Shown: in pieces, positions 4,579 through 17,277 of the stretch | Layout of the letters: every line of letters starts with the position of its first letter | How positions within the stretch are numbered: the stretch's first letter is position 1 | From: a virus | Reading direction: 5' to 3' (one strand) | Virus record (IMG/VR): IMGVR_UViG_3300045996_000998 | Span: 1-31,357 of that record | DNA: 31,357 nt | Position numbers and translations under genes: made by a program | The notes under the pieces: model-generated | Seen by the model: only the letters and a program-made list of their open reading frames with translations | Told to the model about the DNA's origin: nothing | The model's database searches: none

Positions 4579-5034
4579 ATAGTCCTGTTTGCACGAGGAA
4601 TACGCCCCGTAGGTGGCCGTTGCCCGGGGACTATGTGTACTGTACTGATGTTCTGAGAATCCATAGGGAAGCCCACAAAAGTTGCGTGATTCTAAATCAA
4701 ATGATCGAGAGACTTGTAGTGTACTTTGGTGGTCACTTTTTGGGAGTGAAGAAGTTTAGGGCTTCCCTTAGACTGAGTCTGTATCTATCGTGTGGATACA
4801 AGGTGCCAGGCTATAACAGCGTTATAGGCCTCCCTATAGATTCGGTGTTCCACGATAGAATGCGTTCCCAGTTTCTAGGTGCATTGTATCATGGTTGTGG
4901 TTGTTTGTCGAGGTATGAGGGCATCAAAAAACCACCGGCTAAAGCTCTCCTCTCGGAAATCCCGTACGTGAGAACTCCCAAATAATCCTTGGGTGTTCTC
5001 AACGGTGAAGTGCTCTAGTGTATCGGTGGTTTTG
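4579..5034 (-). ncRNA. Structured non-coding block upstream of the terminase operon
   Basis: This 450-bp stretch has no convincing gene but contains four successive closed inverted repeats: 4579-4585/4628-4634 (7 bp), 4665-4674/4759-4768 (10 bp, AGGGAAGCCC), 4784-4792/4851-4859 (9 bp, with an inner 7-bp hairpin 4811-4827), and 4928-4937/5024-5033 (10 bp, AAAACCACCG) enclosing a further 6+5 bp arm at 4970-5000. On the minus strand the last element is followed by six T residues, so it could also end a short RNA started at the TATAAT near 5069. Strand is inferred from that promoter and the flanking genes. It could be a long 5' leader, an independent RNA, or several elements; no known RNA family was recognised. 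Confidence 0.5.
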
Positions 5035-5068
5035 CTCGCCCGGAATACTAGCTTTCGCTAATAGCTAT

Positions 5069-5074
5069 ATTATA
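5069..5074 (-). promoter_or_regulatory. Putative -10 box TATAAT
   Basis: A perfect TATAAT on the minus strand lies just upstream of the structured block and the terminase operon. It lacks the TG of the extended -10 used elsewhere in this genome and no good -35 is seen, so it is a weaker call. A second candidate, TGATACAAT, lies near 4885-4893 on the same strand. Confidence 0.4.
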
Positions 5075-5102
5075 ACCCAGCAGCCTCAGCCCTGCATAGA
5101 TG

Positions 5103-5205
5103 GCACCAGCCTGGCCTGAACTGGTGCATGCAGTAATGCTCGGGATCATGAGTAGATTGGGGGATACAACAGCCTGACATTAGGGCTTTAGTATAGCATG
5201 TCAGG
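5103..5205. repeat. Two hairpins in a gene-free stretch
   Basis: A perfect 7-bp inverted repeat GCACCAG/CTGGTGC (5103-5109 with 5121-5127) is followed by an 8-bp one CCTGACAT/ATGTCAGG (5173-5180 with 5198-5205). Neither has a good T tract. They continue the structured region 4579-5034 towards the small interrupted gene at 5216-5392. Confidence 0.5.
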
Positions 5206-5215
5206 GCAGGCGTAT

Positions 5216-5392
5216 TTAGTTACTCCCCCTAGGTTCAGATAGCTTGCTTACTATGTAATTACAGGCAAGTAGCACCTCTGATTTGTGTTGCTCTGCCTGG
5301 CGCGCAAGCTAGTTGATAAGCGCAATATCCAAGTCGCCGTTTGGTTCAATGACAAATTCCATTTTGATAGGCTCGTATTTAGGATCGCTCAT
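5216..5392 (-). pseudogene. Small gene interrupted by an in-frame TAG (27 + 30 codons)
   Basis: The ATG at 5392 follows a strong ribosome site (AGAGGAGA) and touches the stop of the next gene upstream. The first part (5309-5392, 27 aa) has the form ...KMEFVIEPNGDLDIALIN, like the start of small DUF2997-type proteins (weak resemblance), then TAG at 5309-5311. The same frame stays open for 30 more codons with normal-looking protein sequence (LARQAEQHKSEVLLACNYIV...) to TAA at 5216. Either the 27-aa protein is complete, or the gene carries a nonsense mutation or read-through codon. TAG is used as an ordinary stop elsewhere (terL). Confidence 0.5.
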
Positions 5393-14650: not shown

Positions 14651-14688
14651 TTAAAAAGAGAGGCCGGGCACGATGCCGGTCACTCTCT
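14651..14688 (-). terminator. Rho-independent terminator
   Basis: Stem AGAGAG/CTCTCT plus an inner CCGG/CCGG pairing (14657-14688), followed on the minus strand by five T residues (14653-14657). It ends the unit carrying the 32-aa zinc microgene and abuts the start of the HNH gene. Confidence 0.8.
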
Positions 14689-14693
14689 CGTGC

Positions 14694-14755
14694 ATCAGCA
14701 CGTATACCCGCCTTGAGGAACCCTCCACTTAAATGAGGCAGGCGTATATGCTGAT
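14694..14755 (-). repeat. Long imperfect hairpin in a 3' UTR
   Basis: Paired blocks ATCAGCA/TGCTGAT (14694-14700/14749-14755), TATAC/GTATA and GCCT/AGGC form a 16-bp stem with two small internal loops and a 26-nt head. It lies 15 nt after the stop of the 32-aa gene and directly before the terminator, so it would be the 3' UTR of that mRNA. Confidence 0.6.
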
Positions 14756-14769
14756 GGATTGGCTGTTAT

Positions 14770-14868
14770 TTACCAGTAGTACAGAAAACATGCAGCGCAC
14801 ATATCGGTGTGCTCGGGATTCTCTACTATTCGCGTGCAATTAGGTACAGCGCATATAGTAACTGCCAT
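14770..14868 (-). CDS. Zinc-finger microprotein, 32 aa
   Basis: Cys at 6, 11, 24 and 27 (CX4C-X12-CX2C; ICAVPNC ... MCAACF) give a complete four-ligand zinc site in only 32 residues. An excellent AAAGGAGA sits 6 nt before the ATG. A -10-like TATAAA at 14888-14893 would give a 13-nt leader, and the gene is followed by the 14694-14755 hairpin and a terminator. It thus appears to be a monocistronic transcription unit, unusual in this packed genome. Confidence 0.6.
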   Translation of the reverse strand: MAVTICAVPNCTRIVENPEHTDMCAACFLYYW

Positions 14869-14968
14869 ACGTTCTCCTTTCCTTATATTTATAGTAGGGC
14901 TGCACGTTCGGGGAGTTTCGCTCCCATGTAGCCCCGATAGTATGCAGACACTTATGCAGCCCTATAGC

Positions 14969-15043
14969 TGGGAGAACTAGGATTCGATACCTAGATCACA
15001 TCGGCCTCAACCGCCGTCGCTCTGTCTTGAGCTATCTCTCCCA
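14969..15043 (-). tRNA. tRNA-like element, non-canonical
   Basis: On the minus strand a 7-bp acceptor-like stem (15043-15037 with 14975-14969) closes three arms: a 4-bp D-like arm with a 6-nt loop (15032-15019), a 4-bp anticodon-like arm with the 7-nt loop GGTTGAG (15016-15002), and a 5-bp T-like arm CTAGG/CCTAG (14994-14977). It differs from a normal tRNA: the T loop TATCGAAT has 8 nt, the D loop lacks GG, there is no U33 before the presumed anticodon, and no CCA is encoded. Could be a decayed tRNA or a domain of a larger RNA. Confidence 0.35.
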
Positions 15044-15231
15044 TAATCAGGCCATACTACAAGGCTCGGGATTTAATCCTATTTCTAGGGAGCACCTCCG
15101 CATTCACAAAGGAACTTGTATGGCCATTCTCAGCCCCGCAAACAGGTGCCACAATAAGTAGCTGCTTATTGCGCTATCAGCGTTGCTACGCTTCTTCGTT
15201 TGTAGGGGCAGTTGAATAGAGAAGACTTGAG

Positions 15232-15314
15232 CGGCAGCGGTATATTGCTTGGGCGCCTATCCCAGCCAGTCCTATGGGCTGTGCAGAATCGAACTGCTTG
15301 GTCAACCGCTGCCG
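15232..15314 (-). ncRNA. Cloverleaf-like element with canonical T-loop
   Basis: A perfect 10-bp outer stem (CGGCAGCGGT/ACCGCTGCCG) encloses three arms: GCAG-TTCGATT-CTGC (minus strand, an exact tRNA T-loop, 15283-15297), CAGCC/GGCTG and TGGG/CCCA. An additional outer pairing TAGAGA/TCTCTA may extend it. The T-like arm comes first in the minus direction rather than last, so it is not an ordinary tRNA. Confidence 0.45.
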
Positions 15315-15504
15315 ATGTATCCTCTCTATACATTTCTCTCGCTTCTATACCAGTTGCGACAGTACTGATGGAATCTAGGTAAACCGCGCCATGCTCTGCC
15401 TTGCTTAAGAACTATTCACCGCCACTAAGACGGATTACGACAATATGGTAGGGGCCTATTTTTTCAGTACTGCCACATTAGATATAGAAGTTTGCGTTTC
15501 CTTT

Positions 15505-15646: not shown

Positions 15647-15910
15647 TTAAAGCAGCTCGATACGTGCGAGCAGCTTTTTAACATCGCTCCATTCGAGGTG
15701 GCCCTCGACATCTGATGTTATTTCTGTGTCATAGCAAAGGCTAAAGCTATCGTTTGCTTCGTCATCGAACTGAATAACAGCGAGCTCCCATAGACCCTCT
15801 TCGCCACCATATGTATATGGGCCGGAGACGACGCTTGCGCCGTAACCATTTTTAAAGCGATAGATTTTCTGTGTTCCGCCGTTCATAGACCGATCAATTA
15901 CTGGTTTCAT
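15647..15910 (-). CDS. Hypothetical protein, 87 aa
   Basis: Strand-rich small protein (QKIYRFKNGYGASVVSGPYTYGGEEGLWELAVIQFDDEANDSFSLCYDTEI) ending in a helix (DVKKLLARIELL); the style is that of small phage proteins annotated as hypothetical. AAGGGAT precedes the ATG. It is flanked by structured elements on both sides (15570-15646 and 15950-16114) and seems to be a stand-alone gene. Function unknown. Confidence 0.6.
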   Translation of the reverse strand: MKPVIDRSMNGGTQKIYRFKNGYGASVVSGPYTYGGEEGLWELAVIQFDDEANDSFSLCYDTEITSDVEGHLEWSDVKKLLARIELL

Positions 15911-15949
15911 ATGTATCCCTTAATTTACCAACCAAAAGCGCATAGAAGT

Positions 15950-16114
15950 GGATTAAGGGCATGGCGCTGGCTATAAGCTGGGTTACTTGGCCGATCAAGC
16001 CCACTACCTCATACGTCATTTACCCGTTGCGGGGTCGCATAGGTGATTCACCATTCGTCAGAGTCTGCGTCGCATATCAACGGCACTCATAGCCAGCGCT
16101 ACTGCCCTTAATCC
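15950..16114 (-). ncRNA. 165-nt element closed by a 23-bp stem
   Basis: GGATTAAGGGCA (15950-15961) pairs with TGCCCTTAATCC (16103-16114), and after a 2/3-nt internal loop GCGCTGGCTAT (15964-15974) pairs with ATAGCCAGCGC (16089-16099). Inside are further hairpins, such as ACCC/GGGT and GGTGA/TCACC near 16028-16053. It begins right next to the stop codon of the lytic transglycosylase gene and ends 40 nt before the next start, so it lies between two minus-strand genes. No T tract; not a simple terminator. RNA family not recognised. Confidence 0.6.
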
Positions 16115-16714
16115 TTATCCACACCGAACTTTGTACTTACACGTAGTAGCACCCCAGGGGTTCCACCCTTGGTCACTCCACATAATATGCGCGACTGCTA
16201 CGTTGTTCTTGGCGTTCTTCAACCACGTTTCTAAGCCTGAAACCGTCTTAGCTCCCGTATAGCCAGCGCGAACTGAATCGCGGTATTTGGCGTTTAGGTT
16301 GCTAGTACCTTTCAGGTTGATTTGGAAACATCCAATAGAGTAGTCGCCTGTAGATGGAGTGTCATTGTGGTTATCTGGGTTGTTATTGCTTTCTGCCATC
16401 ATAACCGCGTGGGCTACTGATTTGTTCCAGCTATAACGTTGTACTTCGTTTGCACAGGTCGGTGTGTTTGCTGCAACTGTTTTACTTTCAGTTACAGCCT
16501 CCGGCTCAACTTCCTTAGCATTTTGCACTGCAACAACCTCGTCTTGTTTGGTCACTTGGGGTGTCGCTCGTGATTGCATTTCTTGCTCCGCAGACGAAAG
16601 AGTTAGACTTTCATGCCGTGCCAGCGGGGAAGTTGAATTGTTAATTTGCTTAGCCGGAGTTGGTACTAAGAGAAGCAAGGCCGCACTTAATACCGCTGCG
16701 ATGAGTATTCTCAT
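16115..16714 (-). CDS. Secreted lytic transglycosylase (SLT-like)
   Basis: Cleaves peptidoglycan glycan strands. Start at 16714 follows a perfect AAAGGAG (5 nt spacing) and gives a signal peptide MRILIAAVLSAALLLLVPTPA. After a low-complexity linker (about 25-85) comes a lysozyme-like domain: catalytic Glu108 in MMAESN, GDYSIGCFQIN (123-133) and VAVAHIMWSDQGWNPWG (173-189). Cys87, 129, 192 and 198 could form disulfides. It stands apart from the holin/M23 cassette, in the RNA-rich lysogeny region, and could act in lysis, DNA entry, or as a lysogenic factor. Confidence 0.8.
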   Translation of the reverse strand: MRILIAAVLSAALLLLVPTPAKQINNSTSPLARHESLTLSSAEQEMQSRATPQVTKQDEVVAVQNAKEVEPEAVTESKTVAANTPTCANEVQRYSWNKSVAHAVMMAESNNNPDNHNDTPSTGDYSIGCFQINLKGTSNLNAKYRDSVRAGYTGAKTVSGLETWLKNAKNNVAVAHIMWSDQGWNPWGATTCKYKVRCG

Positions 16715-16852
16715 GGCAACTCCTTTGTTTAGTTGTGTGTTCCACCTCTGGAACAAATCTCCCAAGCGCTAATTGTTACTCCGGGCTAAGTAATATGACC
16801 GCCCTTGGTACGTTCGCTGCTTGAACTGCGAGGATAGTTTCTCGTCATCCTG

Positions 16853-16890
16853 CCCTCGTGGCTACAAGTCAAATGTCGTGGCCAAGAGGG
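16853..16890 (+). repeat. Hairpin with a GTCAAAT loop (copy 1)
   Basis: CCCTCgTGGC pairs with GCCAaGAGGG (16853-16862/16881-16890), loop containing ACAAGTCAAATG. The same core, GCTACAAGTCAAATG then GTGGCC, recurs at 17183-17207 in the plus-strand small RNA, where a second hairpin has GTCAAA in its loop. The strand shown is that of the copy in the small RNA. Confidence 0.5.
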
Positions 16891-16925
16891 TAAATAAAAA
16901 GAATCTTCCGGTGAAAGAAGATTCT
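16891..16925 (-). terminator. Rho-independent terminator of the tRNA-like unit
   Basis: 9-bp stem AGAATCTTC/GAAGATTCT (16900-16908 with 16917-16925), followed on the minus strand by TTTTTATTTA. It lies 17 nt beyond the CCA end of the tRNA-like element. Confidence 0.85.
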
Positions 16926-16941
16926 CTTACAATTAACATCT

Positions 16942-17009
16942 TGGCTGGGGATGAGGGATTCGAACCCCCGATACGGGTTCCCAGCGTTATCTGTTAATTA
17001 CGTTCCCCA
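16942..17009 (-). tRNA. tRNA-like RNA with canonical 3' half; probable attP core
   Basis: On the minus strand the 3' half is fully tRNA-like: T arm GGGGG-TTCGAAT-CCCTC (16969-16953), acceptor strand ATCCCCA (16952-16946), discriminator G and encoded CCA (16944-16942). Six of seven bases of TGGGGAA (17009-17003) pair with it. The middle is only 33 nt, with no normal D arm and a GATAaCG/CGTATC stem carrying the loop CTGGGAACC, so it is shorter than any standard tRNA. It has its own promoter (17087-17115) and terminator. Phages with tyrosine integrases commonly carry the 3' end of the target tRNA as attP; int lies 0.9 kb away. A functional mini-tRNA is the alternative. Confidence 0.55.
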
Positions 17010-17086
17010 TATTGGTCGCTGTAGTGCGGGGTAGGAATCTTCTTCCTCGTAATCTGTGATTGAAAGTGCGTCGGTTAACTGTTTAC

Positions 17087-17115
17087 ATAGTAACATAAGG
17101 GCTTTTCTAAGTCAA
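17087..17115 (-). promoter_or_regulatory. Strong promoter for the tRNA-like RNA
   Basis: Minus strand: -35 TTGACT (17110-17115), 17-nt spacer, extended -10 TGTTACTAT (TACTAT at 17087-17092). Expected start near 17080, about 70 nt ahead of the tRNA-like element. It is divergent from the plus-strand promoter at 17147-17174, with 31 nt between the two -35 boxes. Confidence 0.75.
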
Positions 17116-17180: not shown

Positions 17181-17277
17181 AGCTACAAGTCAAATGCTGT
17201 GGCCTAGAGTCAAATCTAGGTCCGGTAAGTCGTGGCAGAAACAAGACTTTCGGATAAAACCGGGAGTCTTTTTCTTT
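17181..17277 (+). ncRNA. Plus-strand small RNA, about 97 nt
   Basis: Bounded by a near-consensus promoter and an 11-bp terminator stem (17243-17253 with 17260-17270) followed by TTTCTTT. It contains no ORF. Folding shows a hairpin GCTACA/TGTGGC with loop AGTCAAATGC, then CCTAGA-GTCAAA-TCTAGG, then a single-stranded AAGTCGTGGC-rich part and the terminator. The repeated GTCAAA loops suggest a binding site for a protein or for other RNAs. Possible roles include control of lysogeny or of the adjacent integrase. No known RNA family recognised. Confidence 0.7.

Follow-up and report, generated by a model that had tools for sequence, protein, structure and literature searches.

Organization of the array

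The sequence analysed here comprises positions 1-31,357 of the IMG/VR virus record IMGVR_UViG_3300045996_000998 (31.4 kb; hereafter the window), in which nearly all genes lie on the minus strand and the annotated proteins include ERF, YopX, TerL, a lysozyme-like protein, HNH/AP2 (HNH also through PHROGs) and an integrase. Between the gene at 15647 and a small downstream open reading frame (ORF) of 32 amino acids, the window contains no ORF of at least 60 amino acids, and this non-coding stretch holds six adjacent units on the minus (gene) strand (14895-15472), each closed by a helix of 7-10 bp (Table 1). The original prediction, made from the sequence, had described these units as a tandem array, the first four with the geometry of a tRNA array. 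All six closing helices are present at the positions claimed, and units 1-4 are indeed separated by short gaps of ~5-7 nt. The feature extends beyond this first description, as the window also carries a second array of helix-closed units, a long rod-like element and a further hairpin unit downstream of the reported array.

Table 1. Positions of structured elements and associated features in the window and in related phages.
Feature	Positions	Strand	Description
Unit 1	14895-14964	-	70 nt; closing helix TAGGGCTGCA, 10-11 bp; two inner hairpins
Unit 2	14969-15043	-	Degenerate tRNA-Gln(UUG)-like cloverleaf; closing helix TGGGAGA/TCTCCCA, 7 bp
Unit 3	15050-15125	-	76 nt; closing helix GGCCATAC, 8 bp, plus CAAG/CTTG
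Unit 4	15133-15209	-	77 nt; closing helix GCCCC + CAAAC, 5+6 bp; two inner hairpins
Unit 5	15232-15314	-	83 nt; closing helix CGGCAGCGGT, 10 bp; three arms, of which the first is a canonical T arm
Unit 6	15360-15472	-	113 nt; closing helix CAGTACTGA, 9 bp; weakest unit
ORF of 32 amino acids	14770-14868	-	CxxC type, AGGAGA site; between array and terminator hairpin; from translation
Hairpin unit downstream of array	14690-14760	-	71 nt; folding z -4.4
GC-rich hairpin, then UUUUU	14654-14690	-	Probable transcript end, from sequence and fold
Second array	4665-5311	-	Helix-closed units in non-coding gap upstream of terminase genes
Units of second array	4665-4768, 4784-4859, 4928-5033, ~5070-5235, 5240-5311	-	
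Rod, family R1	15950-16114	-	165 nt; outer helix 12 bp, GUAG/CCA internal loop, inner helix 13 bp, variable head
attP	16915-17044		3' end of tRNA-Gln(CUG) of Patescibacteria within inverted repeat; conserved in phage G001 (L034:10994-11210)
R2 element	L015:869-1043	+	
R2 element	L045:412-681	-	
R2 element	L047:1031-1213	-	
R2 element	L176:5870-6045	-	
Further R2 elements	L239-L269		

The window arrays are real, folded and strand-biased. Specifically, the whole reported array (590 nt) reached a folding z-score of -3.9 on the minus strand versus -1.7 on the plus strand, and units 1-5 taken singly scored -3.5, -2.9, -3.2, -2.1 and -3.0 on the minus strand (plus-strand values were -2.3 for unit 1 and -1.8 for unit 3). 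The second array has no Rfam match at an E value of 2 and surpasses every other stretch of the phage in structure (-6.3 on the minus versus -3.4 on the plus strand), and in both arrays the plus strand folds far less well relative to its own shuffles. Among the 53 minus-strand tiles of 590 nt that defined the background (mean z -0.36, s.d. 1.76), the four lowest values were found at 4721-5310 (-6.7) and at 14751-15340, 15931-16520 and 16521-17110 (-4.2 each), corresponding to the second array, the reported array, the rod region and the attP region, respectively. A local folding scan with 120-nt windows did not resolve single units. The probable transcript end downstream of the array is missing from the list of a consensus scan.

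tRNA-like traits within the array

One unit of the array is tRNA-like. Searched alone, unit 2 aligns over its full length (positions 1-71) with the Rfam tRNA model RF00005 at 22.5 bits (E 0.006), below the gathering cut-off of 29 bits that would mark a canonical tRNA; the other units have no match to this model. Judged from its sequence, unit 2 carries the identity traits of tRNA-Gln (U1-A72, G73 and UUG in a seven-base loop), and it departs from a canonical tRNA by G33, an 8-nt T loop (TATCGAAT) and a D loop (AAGACA) without GG. The long T loop and the absence of U33 had both been noted in the original prediction, as had a canonical T loop in the wrong order, which is found in unit 5, where the GCAG-TTCGATT-CTGC arm comes first on the minus strand. 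An additional outer helix of 9-11 bp (~15214-15331) is predicted to give unit 5 a rod-like two-helix stem. A circularly permuted tRNA, with arms in the order T, acceptor-like and D-like, can be drawn for this unit, an unproven reading into which the joining lengths and the 10-bp 'anticodon' helix do not fit.

Across 925 kb of strand sequence, the phage group contains seven strict canonical T-arm motifs (one inserted base being allowed), and two of the seven lie in the reported array, within 322 nt and on one strand, a count made post hoc. Unit 2 was also examined in a relaxed tRNA scan of the window. ARAGORN called no tRNA gene in the window or in the loci of close relatives that were scanned, and an Rfam scan of the window region returned nothing at the gathering level. 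No conserved box common to the window units was found.

A covarying family of rods

Phages with 69-79% identity in TerL, retrieved whole for comparison, carry helix-closed units of their own, and the window rod has counterparts in four related phages. We named the resulting family R1. The first alignment, of three copies from phage G009, one from G013 and the window copy, spanned the outer helix, the GUAG/CCA loop and the inner helix, and contained double-sided changes in 12 of 24 pairs. Its covariation score was 0.483 versus 0.250 for shuffled alignments (0/500), and structures slid along the alignment reached at most 0.142. With seven copies, compensated pairs rose to 16 of 24, and the stem sequences differ between copies. 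The window rod, itself one of the five training sequences, scores 97 bits against the model, with both stacked helices and the GUAG/CCA-type loop, and thus belongs to a covarying family.

The R1 model recovered an independent copy in G001 (E 3e-5), which is the first of three units that stand head to tail, separated by 1 and 4 nt and unrelated in sequence; with filters off, the other two units match R1 at E 3e-4 and 0.08. This is direct evidence that, in these phages, helix-closed units in tandem can be divergent versions of a single structured RNA even when their sequences are unrelated. R1 copies are found on the same strand as their genes, and their scores on it are far higher than on the opposite strand. 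The family was found only in the clade of the window phage: across 47 related virus records it was detected in G001 and G013 only (G009 and G022 are outside that set), and under strict filters it was absent from 380 Patescibacteria genomes. A DNA pattern of the rod 3' strand gave chance matches among viral contigs, except in G009 and one near-identical contig. Of nine R1-type copies inspected, six have N-CCA after the inner helix, and this helix, at 12-13 bp, has the same length as the acceptor/T minihelix of tRNA, a combination that would suit tRNA-processing enzymes.

Used as baits, the lysozyme-like protein and a large structural protein retrieved no relatives, and the 87-amino-acid protein encoded next to the rod retrieved unrelated phages only. 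Stems that BLAST found conserved among relatives were mostly chance stems within coding DNA and were discarded. One TerL relative has an inverted repeat of 131 nt in all (L019:1075-1205), whose 24-bp arms match perfectly.

Exchange of a rod for a tRNA, and a second family

In phage G012 (locus L015), the slot that holds the rods in G009 is bounded by flanks that are 83-92% identical, with interior similarity no better than that of shuffled sequence. The G012 slot contains an Rfam-positive tRNA (L015:743-839; 38 bits) enclosed by a 17-bp outer helix with the same GATTGAGT start as the rod outer helix. A rod and a tRNA have thus been exchanged at one orthologous slot, inside the same outer helix.

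Directly adjoining this slot in both G012 and G009 is a second family, R2. Its elements consist of an acceptor-like helix, a D arm (GTGGCGGAATAGGTAGACGC) that is exactly that of leucine tRNA, a hypervariable stretch, GCAAGGT-GACTATACGAGTA, a second hypervariable stretch, CTCG-TCAAATCCTTGC and the acceptor 3' strand. Without its insert the T arm would be canonical (GCAAGG-TTCAAAT-CCTTGC); the insert, which varies in length and starts with the conserved GACTATACGAGTA, interrupts the T loop (TTCAAAT) after T54. A pattern scan of IMG/VR yielded 34 stretches, placing the family in ~30 viral contigs. Across 31 stretches, the 12-bp helix is paired at 90% of positions, its first seven pairs being formed in 94% of cases versus 54% in shuffled sequences. 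Counted by cells, pairing in this acceptor helix reaches 93%, with all four pair types, and the whole-structure covariation score of a 20-sequence alignment is 0.51 versus 0.13. The shortest R2 element, L240:5259-5383, has a split T loop with only ~10 variable nt and suits structure work.

Permuted and interrupted tRNA genes are known in archaea and algae, and bacterial tRNA genes can contain group I introns. The split T loop of R2 in the relatives and the leading T arm of unit 5 recall such genes. A group I ribozyme would not fit into the short R2 inserts, which all start with the conserved GACTATACGAGTA, and the group I intron models of Rfam found no match in L015:660-1260 or L047:600-1260. 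Rfam did not match R2 in the two loci searched, ARAGORN made no R2 call in the loci scanned, and a distant BLAST search with one copy against INPHARED phages returned short, weak matches only. The R2 pattern was likewise absent from the 380 Patescibacteria genomes.

The equivalent arrays of relatives thus combine rods with tRNA-like RNAs and with further helix-closed units, and include at least two RNA families absent from Rfam. In other R2 phages, R1 was not found beside R2, and helix-closed units near R2 are no denser than elsewhere; mixed arrays are therefore demonstrated only for the group of G009, G012 and G022.

A probable host among Patescibacteria

A 24-mer of the attP occurs exactly in many of the 380 Patescibacteria genomes. 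In the ten genomes inspected, the exact match to tRNA genes covers 27-35 nt, and ARAGORN identified the matching gene as tRNA-Gln(CUG) in nine. Because the attP exactly matches tRNA genes of these ultra-small bacteria, the virus is most likely a temperate phage of Patescibacteria. The attP is bracketed by a 28-nt direct repeat, 89% identical (16861-16888 and 17182-17209), and the structured non-coding stretch lies by the integrase.

Origin and possible function of the modules

We favour, with moderate confidence, the view that in this array a temperate Patescibacteria phage carries a tandem series of transcribed RNA modules that derive from or resemble tRNAs, evolve fast and do not decode, and that perhaps act as tRNA decoys or competitors. 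Like phage tRNA gene arrays, the array lines up units of 70-80 nt in tandem on the gene strand with little space between them; one of the units fits the tRNA profile, and the array of a relative contains a real tRNA. Unlike them, it has mostly units without a cloverleaf, closing helices of 8-12 bp and no ARAGORN call. Decoding seems improbable because the anticodon parts are missing, broken or hypervariable. Each module would retain its long, acceptor-like closing helix while the interior changes fast and can be swapped even for a real tRNA. The units would be made as one polycistronic RNA, cut by the tRNA-processing machinery into small stable RNAs. These may then act as decoys or competitors for a host factor that binds tRNA; the likeliest candidates are a defence nuclease directed against tRNA and an enzyme of tRNA processing. 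The class of element is fairly well supported. For its function, a decoy or competitor role is the most attractive candidate, given published accounts of phage tRNAs with altered anticodon loops that are thought to evade host nucleases (PMC10264068, PMC11555353).

Several observations weigh against this view. Units 1-6 have no BLAST homologue among relatives, among INPHARED phages or among one another, and the covariation evidence therefore comes from R1 and R2 and not from the six units. The R1 model touches the array only at 15214-15331 (unit 5), at a non-significant E of 8, and R2 was found in the window neither by its model nor by GCAAGGTRACTATACGAGTA. Unit 6 alone folds barely better than chance (z -1.3 on the minus strand). 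A stricter genome-wide test, restricted to perfect tandem arms of at least 8 bp, was not significant in the window (p 0.12); the arms by themselves are therefore no proof of an array, and the case is made by folding, tRNA traits and relatives together. As to function, the decoy role is proposed by analogy, and the ten window proteins scanned include none related to defence.

Two alternatives, each rather unlikely in our judgement, deserve most attention. The array could be a decaying phage tRNA cluster, in which formerly functional genes drift and unit 2 is the least decayed. The tRNA match of unit 2, the T arm of unit 5, the spacing and the intact tRNA in the orthologous slot of G012 would all agree with such an origin. 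Decay should, however, break helices, whereas the closing helices are perfect, and strongly covarying in relatives, and the rods hold a conserved GUAG/CCA loop that tRNAs lack. The other alternative, and the strongest functional rival, is that the elements act in cis, as stable intergenic hairpins that protect, terminate or regulate neighbouring messages. Two rods lie ~40 nt before a gene start: the window rod directly follows the stop codon of the lysozyme-like gene and leaves 40 nt to the 87-amino-acid gene, and one G009 rod ends 41 nt before the ERF gene. Moreover, base pairing is possible between the final 8 nt of the window rod stem, on its 3' strand (CCCTTAAT as transcribed), and ATTAAGGG at the ribosome site of the 87-amino-acid gene (15917-15959), which might form an on/off switch. 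Other rod copies, by contrast, are distant from gene starts or stand in tandem without intervening genes, and in G012 a tRNA can take the place of the rod.

It is very improbable that the six units are domains of one large ornate RNA, as the original prediction had also considered. A highly structured, phage-borne region of ~600-1000 nt would suit such an RNA, and GOLLD, ROOL and OLE are likewise large structured RNAs of phages or mobile elements near tRNA-like sequence (PMC12286853). The window array, however, has no Rfam match to any of the three, and instead of one conserved fold it presents modules with homologues that are found alone and in varied order. The rods stand alone or in tandem and their gene contexts vary, and the modules are therefore independent. 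Integron attC sites have a comparable architecture, in which two helix boxes are accompanied by a spacer that stays unpaired and a terminal structure that varies, and in the phage elements interiors are exchanged between copies. Elements acting as DNA, whether folded single-strand recombination sites of this kind or miniature inverted-repeat transposons, nevertheless seem to us the least credible source of the array, as the helices change by compensation with no recombinase boxes (the R and L boxes of attC) kept, folding favours the gene strand, and R2 and unit 2 are oriented like tRNAs. Of the readings offered at the outset, the best overall fit is a new class of structured elements, with two covarying families outside Rfam in equivalent arrays of relatives. 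The proposal of highly diverged tRNAs holds in part, for unit 2, plausibly for unit 5 and for the slot shared by tRNAs and helix-closed units in relatives.

Implications for phage biology

To our knowledge, the RNAs of phages of barely culturable hosts are almost unknown, and standard tRNA finders and Rfam overlook arrays of the kind described here. A broader proposal, which we advance only tentatively and consider doubtful at present, is that Patescibacteria phages possess a new superfamily in which a constant acceptor-like scaffold carries hypervariable, exchangeable interiors (rods, split-T-loop tRNA-Leu-like RNAs and degenerate cloverleaves), shaped by an arms race and serving as decoys or inhibitors of host factors that bind or cleave tRNA. 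The two covarying families, one of them present in ~30 viral contigs, combine a tRNA scaffold with the lack of a recognisable anticodon part and, in one case, with a split T loop. If the modules are made and bind host factors, they would offer a direct handle on the non-decoding roles of phage tRNA genes, a long-standing question.
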